A DNA stretch of 64,000 bases from Glutamicibacter nicotianae (GTDB taxonomy: Bacteria; Actinomycetota; Actinomycetes; Actinomycetales; Micrococcaceae): positions 1-64,000 of the forward strand of contig NZ_BJNE01000008.1 in the NCBI RefSeq assembly GCF_006539525.1, read 5' to 3'. Within the stretch, counting starts at the first letter, position 1, and every line of letters starts with the position of its first letter. A program made the position numbers and the translations under genes. The notes beneath the pieces were generated by a model, which ran no database searches, was not told the DNA's origin, and saw only the letters and a program-made list of their open reading frames with translations. Shown here piece after piece: positions 29,634 to 36,651 of the stretch.

Positions 29634-29873
29634 ACCATCCAGCCTAGATGTTCTGCGCCCCAGCACCGGCGTGCACACTCGGATTTCATCAGACGCCTTG
29701 ATCTTTTACCGAAACGCAGTGCTCTTCCCGCCCCTGCCGCAACCCGCTCCCGGAAACGTAAAACGCTTGCTGACCTAGCATTCAGCAAACAGACAGGTGA
29801 TTACACCGGCACTTCACCGTGCGTTAACCCAGATACCCCCTCCCGGTTAACTTGTGCCCATAGCGTCTTATTC

Positions 29874-31058
29874 GTGAGCAAAACCAACCAGCGAAACGTC
29901 ATGGCGATCATCCCCGCCCGGGGAGGATCCAAGGGCATCCGGCTTAAGAACCTGCGTGAGATCGGCGGCAAATCGCTGCTCGGCCGCGCAATCGAATCAG
30001 CCAGATCCGCGGCGGCAGTCAGCGACGTCGTGGTGAGCACCGACCATGAGCAGATCAAGGCCGAAGCGCTCCGCTACGGGGCGAGGGTCATCGATCGACC
30101 GGCAGATATCGCCGGCGACACGGCCAGCAGCGAGTCAGTTCTGCTCCACGCACTGGCGAATGCGGAATCCCAGCCAGAGATCACCGTGTTCATCCAGTGC
30201 ACCAGCCCGTTCATCGATCCGGCGGACCTGGACGCAGCCATTGCGGCAGTGGCCTCGCAACGCGCCGACGTCAGCTTCGCGGCTGTTGCGGACCACGGTT
30301 TCCATTGGGGACTGGATCCGCAGGGCGAAGCGGTCGCCGTGGGGCACGACAAGCTGCACCGTCCGCGCCGCCAGGATCGCGAACCGCGCTTCCGCGAGAC
30401 CGGGGCCTTCTACGTGATGGATACCCGCGGATTCCTCGAAGCCGGCCACCGCTTCTTCGGAAAGGTCCGGGTCCATGAGGTTCCAGCAGAGCACGGCATC
30501 GACATCGATACCGAGGCAGACCTGCTGCTCGCCGGGCTGGCCGTTCCGGCCAACCGGGAACCGATCGAAGTCGATGCGGTCATCACGGATTTCGACGGGG
30601 TGCACACCCCGGACACCGCATATGTCGATGAGCACGGGACCGAAACCGTGCGCGTCTCCCGCTCCGATGGAATGGGAGTGGCCCGGCTGCGGGCCGCCGG
30701 AGTGAAGTTCCTGATTCTCTCCAAGGAAACCAACCCGGTGGTCGCCGCCCGCGCCGCCAAGCTGAAGGTCGAAGTGGCCCACGGCATCGAAAACAAGGCC
30801 GAATACGTGGCCCGCTGGCTGGCTGACGAATCCATCAACCCGGCCCGCGTCGCCTACCTCGGCAACGACATCAACGACCTGGGCGCGATGGCGCTGGTCG
30901 GCTGGCCGATCACCGTGGCCGATGCCCACCACGACGTGCACCTGGCAGCACGGCACACGCTGACCCGCAAGGGCGGGCACGGAGCGGTACGGGAACTGGC
31001 CGAACTGGTTCTCGCCGCACGCACCGCCACCAAGAGTTCTCCAAGTTTCACCCACTGA
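29874..31058 (+). CDS. CMP-nonulosonate cytidylyltransferase fused to HAD phosphatase
   Basis: A fusion of about 394 residues. Residues 1-225 form a CMP-sialic-acid synthetase (NeuA) domain with IIPARGGSKGIRLKNL, QCTSPF and RETGAFYVM. Residues about 233-394 form a KdsC-like HAD phosphatase: the nucleophile motif DFDGVHT near 239-245, a motif III lysine in HGIENKAEY and GNDINDL. The enzyme should activate a nine-carbon acid sugar with CTP, and the HAD part should remove the 9-phosphate from the newly made acid. GTG 29874 gives MSKTNQRNVM; ATG 29901 is the alternative, and neither has a clear ribosome site, so a leaderless message is possible. neuB follows 12 nt later. Confidence 0.9.
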   Translation: MSKTNQRNVMAIIPARGGSKGIRLKNLREIGGKSLLGRAIESARSAAAVSDVVVSTDHEQIKAEALRYGARVIDRPADIAGDTASSESVLLHALANAESQPEITVFIQCTSPFIDPADLDAAIAAVASQRADVSFAAVADHGFHWGLDPQGEAVAVGHDKLHRPRRQDREPRFRETGAFYVMDTRGFLEAGHRFFGKVRVHEVPAEHGIDIDTEADLLLAGLAVPANREPIEVDAVITDFDGVHTPDTAYVDEHGTETVRVSRSDGMGVARLRAAGVKFLILSKETNPVVAARAAKLKVEVAHGIENKAEYVARWLADESINPARVAYLGNDINDLGAMALVGWPITVADAHHDVHLAARHTLTRKGGHGAVRELAELVLAARTATKSSPSFTH

Positions 31059-31070
31059 AAGGCAATACCC

Positions 31071-31964
31071 ATGACCTCCATGACTACCGACATCAAGCCA
31101 GTTGCCATCGGCGACGTCCAGGTTGGCGCAGGCCAGCAGGTCTACGTCATCGGCGAGATCGGCATCAACCACAACGGCGACATCGAGATCGCCAAGCAGC
31201 TGATCGACATCTCGGCCGAGGCCGGCGCCAACGCGGTGAAGTTCCAGAAGCGCACCCCGGACATCTCCACCCCGATGGACATGCGCGACAAGATCCGCTC
31301 CACCCCATGGGGCGACATGACCTACCTGGACTACCGCTACCGCGTCGAGTTCGACCAGGCCCAGTACAAGGAGCTCATCTCCTACGCCGCATCCAAGGGC
31401 CTGCACGCCTTCGCATCGCCATGGGACGTTCCTTCGGTCGAGTTCATGGAAGAGCAGGGTGCAGTCACCCACAAGGTAGCGTCCGCATCGGTCACGGACA
31501 TCGAGCTGCTCAAGGCCCTGGCGGAAACCGGCAAGCCGATCATCCTGTCCACCGGCATGTCCACCATCGAGCAGATCGACAAGGCAGTGGAAACCCTGGG
31601 CACCAGCAAGCTGGTCATGATGCACGCGACCTCCACCTACCCGCTGCCTGCCGAAGAGGCCAACCTGCGCATGATCGAGACCCTGCGCGACCGCTACCAG
31701 GTCCCAGTGGGCTACTCGGGCCACGAGCGCGGCCTGCAGATCTCGCTGGCAGCAGTCGCCCTGGGCGCCGTGACCGTCGAGCGCCACATCACCCTGGACC
31801 GCACCATGTGGGGCTCTGACCAGGCTTCGTCGCTGGAGCCGAAGGGCTTCGAGTCGCTGATCCGCGACATCCGCATCCTGGAGCAGGCCATGGGCGACGG
31901 CGTGAAGAAGGTCTTCCCAGGCGAGCTGGCTCCGCTCTCGCGCCTGCGCCGCGTCGACGCCTAA
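31071..31964 (+). CDS. NeuB-type nonulosonate (phosphate) synthase without SAF domain
   Basis: A 297-residue NeuB-family aldolase. It starts with EIGINHNGDIEIAKQLID, then VKFQKRTPD, VASASVTDIELLKALA, ILSTGMST, GYSGHE and the C-terminal TLDRTMWGSDQASSLEP. It joins phosphoenolpyruvate to an aldose to make a nonulosonic acid. Typical NeuB proteins run to about 345 residues because of a C-terminal antifreeze-like SAF domain; this one ends right after the barrel (RLRRVDA), so that domain is missing. ATG 31071 has AAAGG 8 nt upstream. It is 12 nt behind the cytidylyltransferase-phosphatase gene and is followed by a strong terminator. Confidence 0.92.
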   Translation: MTSMTTDIKPVAIGDVQVGAGQQVYVIGEIGINHNGDIEIAKQLIDISAEAGANAVKFQKRTPDISTPMDMRDKIRSTPWGDMTYLDYRYRVEFDQAQYKELISYAASKGLHAFASPWDVPSVEFMEEQGAVTHKVASASVTDIELLKALAETGKPIILSTGMSTIEQIDKAVETLGTSKLVMMHATSTYPLPAEEANLRMIETLRDRYQVPVGYSGHERGLQISLAAVALGAVTVERHITLDRTMWGSDQASSLEPKGFESLIRDIRILEQAMGDGVKKVFPGELAPLSRLRRVDA

Positions 31965-31979
31965 GCACGCCAGCGTATC

Positions 31980-32022
31980 CGGCGGTTGGACTCACCGACG
32001 GGTCCAACCGCCGTTTATTTTT
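31980..32022 (+). terminator. Rho-independent terminator inside the glycan cluster
   Basis: Perfect 12-bp arms CGGCGGTTGGAC and its complement with a 10-nt loop, then TTTATTTTT. It separates the sugar-synthesis pair from the four glycosyltransferase genes, so the latter need read-through or their own promoter. Confidence 0.92.
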
Positions 32023-32028
32023 GTCTGC

Positions 32029-33048
32029 ATGAGGAAGGCCGTGAAGAGCACAATGACTTTGATCCCCGGGCGCATTTCAGTGGTGATCCCCGCCTATAAC
32101 CAAGAAGCGTATATTTGCGATGCCCTCTCATCCCTGGTCCGGCAGAAGCTGGGACGCTGGGAGCTTGAAGTGCTCGTGGTTGATGACGCTTCCGATGACC
32201 AGACTGCCGATCTGGTGCGCGGCTACGAAGACCAGCTGCCTGGCCTGAAGCTGATCTCGCTGCCGGAGAATTCAGGGGTTTCTGCCGCCCGCAATGCCGG
32301 GCTGGAACAGGTCACCGGCGAATACTTCACCTTCCTCGACCCCGACGACTGGTACTCCCCCGAGCATTTGGAAGCCCTGGCGGAATCCTTGACCGAATTG
32401 CATGTGGACTTCGTGCGCTGCGACCATGTGCGCGTCACCGGCACCAACCGGGTCATCCACCGCGCCCCGCAGGCCCTGCGCGGCATGCCGCTGAACCCGG
32501 CCGACGACATCGAGCCGATCGATTCCCCGTCCATGGTGGACTACGCCTTCGTGTGGGCAGGCATGTACCGCACCGAGCTGATGCGCACCCGCGAGCTGAT
32601 GTACTTCGACGCGCAGCTGCACAGCGCCGAAGACCGGCTGTGGCTGTGGAAGCTGCACCTGAATACCGAGCGCTACTCCGTCGTCTCCTCCCCCGGGGTG
32701 TTCTACCGCCGCGGCCTGCCTGGCTCGCTGACCCAGGTCTTCGACCATCGCCAGCTCGGCTTCATCCCCGCCTACTCGCAGATCCTCACCGAGGTGCGCC
32801 TGCACCCGGATGCGGATCGCCACCTGCCCAAGGCGATGCGCCAGTTCTTCGCCATCGTGTGCCATCACGAGAAGCGCGCGAAGAACTACCCGCCAGAAGT
32901 CCGCTTGGAGATGAAGCAGAAGCTGCGCCAGGTATTCACCAGCGTTGACGCGCCAATGGCCCGCCAGGTCGCCCTCGAGATGGATGTTGCGCGCCGCCGC
33001 CATATCCTCTCCTTCCTCCAGCCAGGTCAGATCGGGGCCGCCAAGTGA
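32029..33048 (+). CDS. GT2-family glycosyltransferase
   Basis: About 339 residues. The GT-A fold is clear: SVVIPAYNQEAYICDALSSL, VLVVDDASDDQT, NSGVSAARNAGLE and the metal-binding FLDPDDWYSP. It should use a nucleotide sugar on the inner face of the membrane. The start is unclear: ATG 32029 lies only a few bases behind the terminator, while GTG 32041 and ATG 32053 are in frame near a GGAAGG/GAAGAG site. Its stop overlaps the next start by 4 bp (GTGA). Confidence 0.88.
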   Translation: MRKAVKSTMTLIPGRISVVIPAYNQEAYICDALSSLVRQKLGRWELEVLVVDDASDDQTADLVRGYEDQLPGLKLISLPENSGVSAARNAGLEQVTGEYFTFLDPDDWYSPEHLEALAESLTELHVDFVRCDHVRVTGTNRVIHRAPQALRGMPLNPADDIEPIDSPSMVDYAFVWAGMYRTELMRTRELMYFDAQLHSAEDRLWLWKLHLNTERYSVVSSPGVFYRRGLPGSLTQVFDHRQLGFIPAYSQILTEVRLHPDADRHLPKAMRQFFAIVCHHEKRAKNYPPEVRLEMKQKLRQVFTSVDAPMARQVALEMDVARRRHILSFLQPGQIGAAK

Positions 33049-34388
33049 TCGCACTGATTGAAGCCAGCAGCTACTTCCAGCTTGCTTCTCTGGCCGCGAT
33101 GGCCGATGCAGGACTGCTCCCCGAAGCAGATGAACGCATTCTCGTCCTGGCCAACGGCTCGCAGGTTCCGGAACTGACCACACCGCTGGATGAGGTTCCG
33201 GGCTTTGAGCAACTGGCCGCCCGCTTTGACCGGGTGGTGGATTTCGCCGCGCTGACCGCACCGCGCCGCCCGGCGCAGTTCAACCCGCGTGAGGACGAAC
33301 TGCTGATTTTCGAGCGCCTGCTGCGCAGCGCCTGGGATCTGGGCAATGAACCGCTGACCTTGGTGCTGGAATCCATCCAGGTCAATCCCGCCCGCGCCCT
33401 GGCGCGCATCTTCTTCGATTCCCAGCTGTGGATCCATTCCGACGGCCTGATGTCCTATGGACCCACCCGCAACCGGTTGCCCATGCCGTTGCGCCAGCGG
33501 GTCATCGGCACCATCCACGTGGACCTGGTACCCGGACTTCAGCCGCATCTGCTCGCAGAGCTCGAGCCGCGGCGCGAGATCCTGGAGGCCGGCGGGTTGG
33601 CTGGCATCTTCGGCGAATTGGCCCAGGACGCCGAATTCGACCTGCCCTCCGGTGGCGCGCTCGTCCTCGGGCAGTACCTGGGTTCCCTGGGACTGATGGA
33701 CGCCGAGGAAGAATTCGAGCTGCACCTCGAGATGCTCAACGAGGTGGCCCGCCGGGAGCTTTCCACCGTCCTGTTCAAGGCGCACCCGTCGGCCAGCGCC
33801 ACCTCGGCGGCCCGCTTGGCTGCGGCAGCCAAGGACATGGGCCTGGATTTCCGGCTGCTCAACACGGATCATCTGGCGGAGACCGTAATCTCGGCGGTGA
33901 ACCCAGCCGTGGTGATCTCCTGCTTCTCCACCGGCTTGGCCACCGCAAAGTACATCCTGGGCACGGAAGTCCATGCCGTGGGCACCGGCAGGATGCTGCA
34001 GGCGCTGGCTCCGTACGAGAACTCCAACCGCATCCCGCTGTCCATCATCCACGCACTGTTCGTCCAGGACCTGCCGGTTCCGGCGCACGCTGGCGATGAC
34101 GGCCGGCTCACCGAACTGCTGATCGCCGTGGCCTACTGCATGCAGGCCGCCCAGCTGCCGCACCTGCGCGAGCAGGCCGAGTCCTTCCTGACCGCGCACT
34201 ACCCTGAGTTCTCGGCCCACTTCAAGCGCCGCCGCATCACCAAGCTGGACCTGCCTCCGCACTGGGCTCACATCAGCTCGCGCCGCTCGTTGCCCTCGAA
34301 GGTCCGCGGGGCTTCGCGCCGAGTGCTGCGCCATGGTTCCAAGCAGTTCGAAACGCTTTCCAAGTCCCTGAGCCGACTGGCAAAATGA
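33045..34388 (+). CDS. Polysialyltransferase-like glycosyltransferase
   Basis: A 447-residue protein resembling the alpha-2,8-polysialyltransferase family (Pfam POLYST). Key segments are LVLGQYLGSLGLMDAEEE in mid-protein, LFKAHPSASATSAARLA, in which the HP motif is expected to bind CMP-sugar, and VVISCFSTGLATAKYILG, which matches the S/T-x-x-x motif region. It should transfer or polymerise the CMP-activated nonulosonic acid made upstream. GTG 33045 overlaps the previous stop (GTGA) and its own end overlaps the next start (ATGA), which points to tight coupling. Confidence 0.82.
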   Translation: MIALIEASSYFQLASLAAMADAGLLPEADERILVLANGSQVPELTTPLDEVPGFEQLAARFDRVVDFAALTAPRRPAQFNPREDELLIFERLLRSAWDLGNEPLTLVLESIQVNPARALARIFFDSQLWIHSDGLMSYGPTRNRLPMPLRQRVIGTIHVDLVPGLQPHLLAELEPRREILEAGGLAGIFGELAQDAEFDLPSGGALVLGQYLGSLGLMDAEEEFELHLEMLNEVARRELSTVLFKAHPSASATSAARLAAAAKDMGLDFRLLNTDHLAETVISAVNPAVVISCFSTGLATAKYILGTEVHAVGTGRMLQALAPYENSNRIPLSIIHALFVQDLPVPAHAGDDGRLTELLIAVAYCMQAAQLPHLREQAESFLTAHYPEFSAHFKRRRITKLDLPPHWAHISSRRSLPSKVRGASRRVLRHGSKQFETLSKSLSRLAK

Positions 34389-35410
34389 CACTCACGATGA
34401 TGAAACTGACCCAGCATGACACCCACGAGGTGCCACGCCCCCGTTTCGGCACGGCGCACGTGTGGGTCGAGTCGCCCCTGCAGCTGCTCTCCGCAGTGGA
34501 AACGCATGCCGCAGGACTGCTGGGCACCGACATACGGATCATTCCGCGCCAGGGAATGCCACTGGAGGCCACGACCCAGGCCATGCTGGATCATGCCCCC
34601 GATGGGGTTCATTTCGAACCGGCGGCGCGCAAGCCTCCGCAGCCCAAAGGCGCTGCCGACCGATACGTCACCGGGGATGCCTATTCGGGCAAGATCCAGC
34701 GCACGCTCCTTGCCGGCGTGCGGGCCAAGGAAATCGTCATCATCGACGACGGCATGGCAACGCTGGCCCTGATCAAGCAGCTGATCTCCGACGAGCCCAC
34801 CCCCTTGGTGCGCGCCCGGACGAAGAATTCGGCGGCCCGTGTCGCCATGGGGCTGGCGACCTGGCATCGCTTGCGCCAGCTGGCCCGCGAGGGTCGCCTG
34901 CTGATTGTCTCGGCGCTGTTTGTCGACCCGGAATCCCGCCAGAAGATGGCTGATCTGGGGATCAAGTTCGCGCAGCACAAGTTCGAGTGGCTTGCTACCC
35001 AGCCGGTGGCCGAGCGGTTCATCGAGCCTACCCTGCTGATCGGTTCGGCCATGGTCGCCGATGAGCTGATCCATGAGCAGCCGTACTTGCGCTGGATCGA
35101 AGAGATCGCATCCGAAGGTCCGGTCGCCTACTTCCCGCATCGCCGTGAGACGCCGGAATTGCTGGCGAAGATCTCCAAGATTGACCAGGTAGTGCTCAAG
35201 GAGCACACTGTTCCCATCGAAATGCGCTTGCGTGCCCTGCGGCCGGGCCAGGAAATCCGGGCCCTGCCGTCCACGGTGATTCCATCCCTGCGCTTGCTGC
35301 TGGGTTCCGATGCCCGCTTCCTGTTTCCGCAAGCCGTGCTTGACAACTGGTGGACCCCTGGTACTCCCCTCGAGTTGCGTGAGCACCTATCCAGTTCGTT
35401 GAAGGTGTGA
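34385..35410 (+). CDS. Putative glycosyltransferase of the nonulosonate cluster
   Basis: A 341-residue soluble protein. It starts HVWVESPLQLLSAVETHAAGL, a motif seen at the N-terminus of several sialyl/polysialyltransferase-related proteins, and contains EIVIIDDGMATLALI and later YFPHRRETPELLAKI and VLKEHTVPIEM, like the GT52/POLYST acceptor region. The best reading is a GT-B glycosyltransferase that acts with the polysialyltransferase-like protein. ATG 34385 overlaps the upstream stop by 4 bp and its stop overlaps the next start. The specific linkage cannot be deduced. Confidence 0.68.
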   Translation: MTLTMMKLTQHDTHEVPRPRFGTAHVWVESPLQLLSAVETHAAGLLGTDIRIIPRQGMPLEATTQAMLDHAPDGVHFEPAARKPPQPKGAADRYVTGDAYSGKIQRTLLAGVRAKEIVIIDDGMATLALIKQLISDEPTPLVRARTKNSAARVAMGLATWHRLRQLAREGRLLIVSALFVDPESRQKMADLGIKFAQHKFEWLATQPVAERFIEPTLLIGSAMVADELIHEQPYLRWIEEIASEGPVAYFPHRRETPELLAKISKIDQVVLKEHTVPIEMRLRALRPGQEIRALPSTVIPSLRLLLGSDARFLFPQAVLDNWWTPGTPLELREHLSSSLKV

Positions 35411-36651
35411 AGCAGCTGATGAAGCCATCAATTCTTGCCATTGCAGATTCCGATTCCTACCTGAAGCTCGCGACAAGTTTCCTGACCCGCCTGGGTCCCG
35501 CATGGGATCGCAATGTGTATTTGGCGCGGACCCCGGTGATGCCGACGGCCGAGCAGATCGCCGCCGCCTTCGAAGGCACGGATCTGGACGCCGATGCCCT
35601 GCAGGTGATTTCGGTATCCCAGCTGGAAGCCGACACCGTGGACGAGGACATTGTCTTCGCGTCGGCGACCGGTCCGGTCGTTGCCGAAATCTACTCCCGG
35701 ATCCTGCGCACCGAGCCGGTTGACGGCCGCTGCACCGCACTGATTTCAGCCTTGCCCGGCGTCGCCTTCCCCGCCACGCAGAAGGGATGGAACTATCGCC
35801 GGGCCGGCGATGCGTTCATCTGCCATTCGCATGCCGAGGCCCGTGATTTCTCCTTCATGATCGAAGGAAAGGAGGGGCATCAGCCGACCATCATGGTCAG
35901 CAAGCTGCCCTTCTTGCGCTCGGCGGGTTTCCCGCCGGAGCAAAAGCAGGTCGTCGAACGGCTGGTGTTCGCACCTCAGGCGAAGGTTCCGGCCCAGGAG
36001 CACGAACGCGAGTCGATCCTGCTGGCGCTCGAGCAGGCCAGCAGGATGAATCCCGAACTTGAGGTGCTCATCAAGCTCCGTGCCAAGGCCGGGGAGCCGC
36101 AGACGCATCTCGAGGCGTTCCCCTATGACTCGCTGTTCGAGAAGCTGCAGGCTGAACAGCGGATCGGCGCGGATTCTCGGTTGCGCTTCGATACCGGATC
36201 TATGAGCGAGGCGTTGACCGATGGCAGCGCCCTGGTGACGGTCTCGTCGACAGCCGCCCTGGAATCCCTTGATCGCGGATTGCCCACGCTGATCCTCTCC
36301 GACTTCGGTGTCAGCGCCCAGATGATCAATACGGTCTTCGTGGCCTCCGGTGTGATTGGCACCTTGGATGATGTCATCGGCTTGAGCTTCGGGGAGCCGA
36401 CCAAAGCCTGGTTGCGGGAAAACTACTTCCACCGGGTCGACCACAGCTTCGCCCAATCCCTCGAGATCCTCGCGCATCGGGCTCGAGCCGGCAAGCTGCT
36501 CACCGATCCGGAAGTACTGGCACACATTCGACGCCAGCCTTTGCGCCATCGGCTCCGCACCACGTTGCCTGCCCCGCTGGTCAGGGTTTTGGTCAAGTTA
36601 CGCCATCATTACCGGCATTCCCGCAAGAATGGGGCCAACTCTTTGTCATGA
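35407..36651 (+). CDS. DUF6716-type putative glycosyltransferase
   Basis: A 414-residue protein. The N-terminus ILAIADSDSYLKLATSFLTRLG and the middle ISALPGVAFPATQKGWNYRRAGDAFICHS match a group of putative glycosyltransferases (DUF6716 as I recall it) found with nonulosonate genes in actinobacteria. The later VLIKLRAKAGEPQTH and SALVTVSSTAALESLDRGLPTLILSDFG resemble the GT-B sugar-nucleotide site. GTG 35407 overlaps the previous stop (GTGA); ATG 35419 is the alternative. It is the last gene of the four-gene block. Confidence 0.72.
   Translation: MKQLMKPSILAIADSDSYLKLATSFLTRLGPAWDRNVYLARTPVMPTAEQIAAAFEGTDLDADALQVISVSQLEADTVDEDIVFASATGPVVAEIYSRILRTEPVDGRCTALISALPGVAFPATQKGWNYRRAGDAFICHSHAEARDFSFMIEGKEGHQPTIMVSKLPFLRSAGFPPEQKQVVERLVFAPQAKVPAQEHERESILLALEQASRMNPELEVLIKLRAKAGEPQTHLEAFPYDSLFEKLQAEQRIGADSRLRFDTGSMSEALTDGSALVTVSSTAALESLDRGLPTLILSDFGVSAQMINTVFVASGVIGTLDDVIGLSFGEPTKAWLRENYFHRVDHSFAQSLEILAHRARAGKLLTDPEVLAHIRRQPLRHRLRTTLPAPLVRVLVKLRHHYRHSRKNGANSLS

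Follow-up and report, generated by a model that had tools for sequence, protein, structure and literature searches.

The teichulosonic-acid locus of Streptomyces coelicolor, reportedly defined by Ostash in 2014, is the described system closest to the six-gene block analyzed here, which occupies positions 29874-36651 of a 64,000-nucleotide stretch of Glutamicibacter nicotianae DNA (the window, G000:C8:1-64000, from a genome of 3.55 Mb that is 99.99% complete). What follows from the literature is drawn from excerpts of the papers cited. SCO4873-SCO4882 is described there as a teichulosonic-acid cluster under PhoP control (PMC13011467), and the Streptomyces polymer as one that holds galactose and ketodeoxynononic acid (Kdn) (PMC11481543, PMC7831098). 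Within this cluster, SCO4877 and SCO4879 are annotated as hypothetical, SCO4878 as a glycosyltransferase, SCO4880 as a transferase and SCO4881 as polysaccharide-related (PMC2267785), the last being annotated elsewhere as NeuB (PMC2367054); a 'sialic acid synthase' of Planobispora rosea has been paired with SCO4880 (PMC8269224). In S. lividans, the proteins for teichulosonic acid increase when, under phosphate limitation, this polymer takes the place of teichoic acid (PMC8003754), and a wall polymer with Kdn is described for Promicromonospora citrea (PMC6801904). The Prymnesium parvum synthase of the Kdn-9-phosphate pathway accepts mannose-6-phosphate only (PMC6200933). Nothing in the literature searched joins Glutamicibacter, cell wall and Kdn.

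We consider it probable that the six G. nicotianae genes make cytidine monophosphate (CMP)-activated Kdn, a sugar like sialic acid, and polymerize Kdn into a phosphate-free wall glycopolymer, a teichulosonic acid, that is switched on when phosphate is scarce. The original prediction, made from the letters of the window, had placed a NeuA-HAD fusion, NeuB and four glycosyltransferase-type genes at these positions, and it proved exact to the base.

The six genes and their relatives

All six open reading frames (ORFs) lie on the + strand, and from gene 3 to gene 6 each gene shares 4 bases with the next (at 33045, 34385 and 35407). Gene 1 (29874..31058, 394 aa, GTG start) encodes a NeuA-type cytidylyltransferase (Pfam CTP_transf_3, 1.7e-25) fused to a KdsC-type HAD phosphatase, and gene 2 (31071..31964, 297 aa) encodes a NeuB-family synthase (NeuB, 7.6e-79), which we propose to be a Kdn-9-phosphate synthase. 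Gene 3 (32029..33048) is a family 2 glycosyltransferase (GT2; Glycos_transf_2, 4.4e-35) whose real start may be a GTG or ATG a few codons further in. Gene 4 (33045..34388) encodes a polysialyltransferase-like PF07388 protein (A-2_8-polyST, 5.9e-24) with conserved DG, HP and FST motifs; gene 5 (34385..35410) a GT-B protein, P5, that matches no Pfam family and is a proposed CMP-nonulosonate transferase; and gene 6 (35407..36651) a putative glycosyltransferase of GT-B fold (DUF6716, 4.9e-113).

The cluster NeuB is present at 93-100% identity throughout the genus (18 of 18 genomes, counting that of the window), and NeuB of the cluster type, at any similarity, in 23 of the 38 genomes compared. For comparison at greater distance, named genomes gave at least 581 NeuB relatives, of which we took the best 80 with 10-kb flanks; some of these loci end early, and partner counts apply within the fetched DNA. 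Partner matches there were to NeuA-HAD (74), DUF6716 (66), P5 (48), GT2 (47) and PF07388 (44), and three of the 80 loci belong to Promicromonospora. All six gene types stand together, in two divergent groups, in three Streptomyces-type genomes (L072, L073, L074), and all six are likewise present in the named Streptomyces loci L163, L165 and L166; GT2 and PF07388 were not seen in the DNA fetched for L159 and L162, and L168 ends early. The gene order in the Streptomyces loci fits the printed annotation of SCO4877-SCO4882, which was compared in place of the S. coelicolor sequence itself.

The HAD half of gene 1 keeps residues D239, D241, S283, K308 and D332, which we take to be the HAD catalytic residues and which are invariant in 20 rows selected for presence of the domain; the phosphatase domain is thus predicted to be complete. 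Its PDB relatives include 3mmz (5e-45) and 3e81 (1.1e-15); the HAD domain of the Streptomyces-type locus L072 matches 3mmz, presumably a Streptomyces avermitilis structure, with 303 bits. A usable NeuA ORF was available in 72 of the 80 relatives. HAD shares that ORF in 65 of them, and in 13 NeuB does so too (L094, L096, L097, L099, L100, L102, L103, L108, L111, L112, L114, L116, L120). These NeuA-HAD-NeuB single ORFs, 678-745 aa long, come from nine genera: Arthrobacter (A. castelli), Planobispora, Streptosporangium (2), Herbidospora (2), Nonomuraea (3), Isoptericola, Acrocarpospora, Microtetraspora and Microbispora. It is because its enzyme is fused that the P. rosea synthase pairs with SCO4880.

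The synthase itself is short. It matches the NeuB_NnaB model to position 270 of 329 only, no SAF domain was detected in Pfam or NCBIfam scans, and in an alignment of 12 rows that includes the window (two rows holding only the matched part) the remaining NeuB rows stop at the same point or within ~20 residues. It scores below the cut-offs of both NeuB_NnaB (256.7 bits against 399.65) and PseI (215 against 340.25).

In the gap between genes 2 and 3 lies a hairpin with a T-rich tail (31980..32013, + strand), perhaps an internal terminator or attenuator of the block, possibly one that sets expression of the transferases against that of the precursor genes. The hairpin is strong; a G+C-rich inverted repeat is visible by eye at the same place in the other genomes of the genus, with a T-rich tail in 7 of 18. 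The scan tolerated no mismatches and so missed the long stem in 6 of the 18 sequences. Rfam gave no matches at gathering cut-offs between 28000 and 38500, and a mycothiol inositol-3-phosphate synthase gene lies 3' of the cluster.

A PHO-box-like repeat before gene 1

Upstream of the GTG of gene 1 is a direct repeat of three 7-base units with an 11-base period (29801..29829, + strand), TTACACC-N4-CTTCACC-N4-GTTAACC, ending 44 nt before the start codon. In the excerpted source a PHO box is a direct repeat of 11-nt units in which seven bases are well conserved, these being GTTCACC in S. coelicolor (PMC4415409). Every one of the 18 genomes of the genus has the repeat at this distance, although their relatedness means that they are not independent cases; the spacers vary, and the first unit is weak in two of them (L012, L014).

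A loose two-unit pattern is over-represented in the window (13 matches against 5.4 expected), and we therefore put weight on the three-unit scan and on searches of the whole genome. With up to three mismatches, the three-unit pattern matches the window at this site alone. With up to two, it matches the whole genome three times, compared with none for the reversed-pattern control: at the cluster, before a PHO4 phosphate transporter gene, and in the stretch that separates a serS-like gene from a HAD gene (the serS gap). The exact two-unit pattern has six genomic matches, again compared with none for the control, which fall at the cluster, at pstS, between phoU and the gene of a histidine kinase, in the serS gap and at two places without a clear phosphate link. 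At the serS gap site (G000:C8:129111-129138, L172), the HAD gene is an ORF for a hydrolase of Cof type.

The cluster thus appears to carry a putative DNA switch for phosphate shortage. The same repeat also stands before pstS, phoU and a phosphate transporter gene, and the predicted phosphate-free Kdn wall polymer is probably made when phosphate is lacking.

The sugar and the polymer

The whole genome holds one PF03102 (NeuB-family synthase) match, that of the cluster, and one Epimerase_2 protein. The latter reads as a WecB/MnaA-type 2-epimerase (matches up to 388 bits), scores 87.9 bits against the NeuC model, whose cut-off is 235.9, and is encoded beside ORFs that look, by eye, like a UDP-sugar dehydrogenase. 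Profile counts for NeuC, PseG, ManA and NanE were made in 24 genomes. NeuC was not over cut-off in any of them (weaker matches in 10), nor was PseG (weaker matches in 2, and no match at all in G. nicotianae). This bears out the earlier statement that NeuC and a Pse set are missing, as far as whole-genome models of NeuC and PseG go, PseB and Leg genes not having been searched by name.

ManA, the source of mannose-6-phosphate, is present in all 24 genomes, this one included. In G146 (L068) the end of manA is the start of P5-DUF6716 on the same strand, and in Actinorugispora endophytica (G215; L070, L115) manA ends 57 nt before P5; manA is within the 10-kb flanks in G030 (L059) as well. Among the 80 named loci, manA lies within 10 kb of NeuB in three (L115, L116, L149), where 0.41 would be expected from 27 copies in ~103 Mb of genome (Poisson 0.008, relatedness ignored). 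A ManA profile search of the 80 loci recovers two of the three, the third copy being sliced by the locus end. Kdn is most likely the product of the cluster, and the predicted wall polymer is likewise favored, by the Streptomyces locus, the NeuA-HAD-NeuB fusions, manA beside transferase genes in two genera, and the PHO-box-like site.

The substrate, product, linkages, wall location and regulation are those that we infer for such a system. ManA would supply mannose-6-phosphate for NeuB to condense with phosphoenolpyruvate, giving Kdn-9-phosphate; the gene 1 protein would take off the phosphate with its HAD half and turn Kdn into CMP-Kdn with its NeuA half. Together with the GT2 enzyme, the PF07388 protein, P5 and/or DUF6716 would then build a chain of Kdn and hexose, and a phosphate-response regulator would bind the repeat at 29801-29829.

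Several observations weigh against this scheme. The HAD half scores 89.8 bits with the Kdn-9-phosphate phosphatase model NF058599 (NCBIfam; cut-off 180), below cut-off and about equal to its 89.2 bits with KdsC (cut-off 208, likewise not reached), so that its phosphatase function is argued from context and not from membership of the NF058599 family. Seven of the 72 relatives with a usable NeuA ORF have NeuA without a HAD half, and none nearby in the fetched DNA: five Curtobacterium, one Glaciihabitans (L146) and one metagenome-assembled genome (L119, L121, L122, L123, L125 and L128 being the other six loci). Another phosphatase may serve there. In G. nicotianae itself manA is not near the cluster, and a second PstS gene lacks the repeat. 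The 80 relatives show seven three-unit sites, of which three precede a cluster gene and none is in Streptomyces, indicating either that the scan is insensitive or that such control is not general. Finally, no wall ligase or exporter lies inside the block, and the genome encodes NanE, so that N-acetylmannosamine-6-phosphate (ManNAc-6-phosphate) can exist in the cell.

The missing ligase and exporter would suit a Kdn polymer that is a capsule, an exopolysaccharide or another surface glycan, not a wall-anchored teichulosonic acid, and PF07388 takes its name from polysialyltransferases of capsule type. We regard this as unlikely in view of the homology to the Streptomyces wall-polymer locus, the PHO-box-like site, which fits the swapping out of phosphate-rich wall polymers, and the presence of TagG-like genes in 9 and TagH-like genes in 17 of the 80 relatives' fetched DNA (the TagH-like set may include unrelated ABC ATPases). 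Clustering of the neighboring ORFs in the relatives returned mostly shadow ORFs and yielded little except an exporter lead.

NanE raises a different question, that of the sugar. The cluster might make N-acetylneuraminic acid (Neu5Ac) by a 9-phosphate route, with ManNAc-6-phosphate drawn from NanE through scavenged sialic acid or reverse epimerization, a route that synthase, phosphatase and cytidylyltransferase would suit equally well. The neighbors of nanE are genes for a BNR sialidase, a NanA-type aldolase, a ROK kinase and a dipeptide-type ABC transporter (G000:C1:282000-298000, L087), and the operon reads as one for sialic-acid catabolism, not synthesis, leaving some room for Neu5Ac. The distribution of NanE speaks against it. 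A NeuB of the cluster type was seen in 20 of the 24 genomes; G019 and G020 (divergent NeuB only) and G184 and G246, whose cluster-type NeuB is not verified (the G246 match is absent from the fetched stretch), were set aside. Strong NanE matches occur in 6 of the 20 and weak ones in 2; the remaining 12, two of them from the same genus, show none over cut-off. Neither NanE nor WecB matched any ORF at E 1e-10 in the fetched DNA of the 80 relatives. With the locus homologous to one for a Kdn polymer, we judge the Neu5Ac route improbable. A further reading, in which DUF6716 would be an unrecognized sugar-nucleotide 2-epimerase and the cluster would make an N-acylated nonulosonic acid, is very improbable: the top PDB matches of the DUF6716 model are UDP-GlcNAc 2-epimerases, but at TM-scores of ~0.5 and 9-15% identity, values that any GT-B protein should give, its profile matches WecB weakly (27% probability, C-terminal part only), and Pfam labels it a putative glycosyltransferase.

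The transferases and comparison with known systems

The P5 model, built from 40 sequences, has a mean pLDDT of 92.6. Its first 16 PDB matches are eight bacterial sialyltransferases and eight plant glucosyltransferases (best E 3.7e-07), and TM-scores with the sialyltransferases are 0.40-0.52. The model indicates that P5 has a GT-B fold, probably nearest to the bacterial sialyltransferases, with the plant enzymes making up the other half of the top matches. Residues D121, D122, G123, H252 and E279 do not vary, and S296 hardly does; the H, E and S-T positions are presumably those that bind CMP. A P5 profile found nothing in the PDB up to E 1. No Pfam family was over cut-off for any of the 40 members, one of which reached E 0.38 for PF07388. 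The profile match between P5 and the PF07388 gene is weak (probability 9.4%, E 0.0034), with H, E and S-T lined up, and profile links of DUF6716 to P5 and to the PF07388 gene are negligible. Of 394 genomes of the class, 84 have a DUF6716 match, 81 of them over cut-off; the family is named nowhere in the literature searched. Among the 14 control genomes it is over cut-off in one, that of Escherichia coli.

For the genus we propose, more tentatively, a phosphate-starvation switch from phosphate-rich wall polymer to a Kdn polymer built with two different CMP-Kdn transferases, the PF07388 protein and a GT-B protein of a new, Pfam-orphan family, with trifunctional NeuA-HAD-NeuB enzymes working from mannose-6-phosphate in several relatives. 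If these proposals hold, the phosphate-free teichulosonic-acid system extends from Streptomyces to a Micrococcaceae-type genus; the signature of NeuA-HAD, short NeuB, PF07388, P5 and DUF6716 would predict Kdn walls across actinobacteria, and further leads would be a transferase family not yet described and a CMP-Kdn synthase in one chain. Systems of this kind are already known. As far as the literature searched goes, the novelty lies in the genus that hosts this one, in its PHO-box-like control, in the transferase without a Pfam family and in the trifunctional fusions.

The best PDB fold matches of P5 are Neisseria NST, Pasteurella PM0188 and a bacterial polysialyltransferase. Like bacterial GT-B sialyltransferases it keeps the DDG, H, E and S positions, but it differs in lacking any sequence-level PDB or Pfam match and in having PH where gene 4 has HP. 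The Kdn-9-phosphate pathway of Bacteroides thetaiotaomicron and P. parvum uses, according to the excerpt cited, the same set of synthase, KdsC-type HAD phosphatase and cytidylyltransferase (PMC6200933), whereas here the phosphatase is fused to the cytidylyltransferase and, in some relatives, to the synthase as well. With S. coelicolor SCO4873-SCO4882 (S. lividans SLI_5146-SLI_5156) the block shares NeuA-HAD, NeuB and four transferase-type partners. It differs in forming one co-directional run where Streptomyces has two divergent groups; NeuB is ~60% and P5 ~26% identical to the Streptomyces forms. PhoP control of the Streptomyces cluster is in print; here a PHO-box-like repeat stands before gene 1 and may serve such control.

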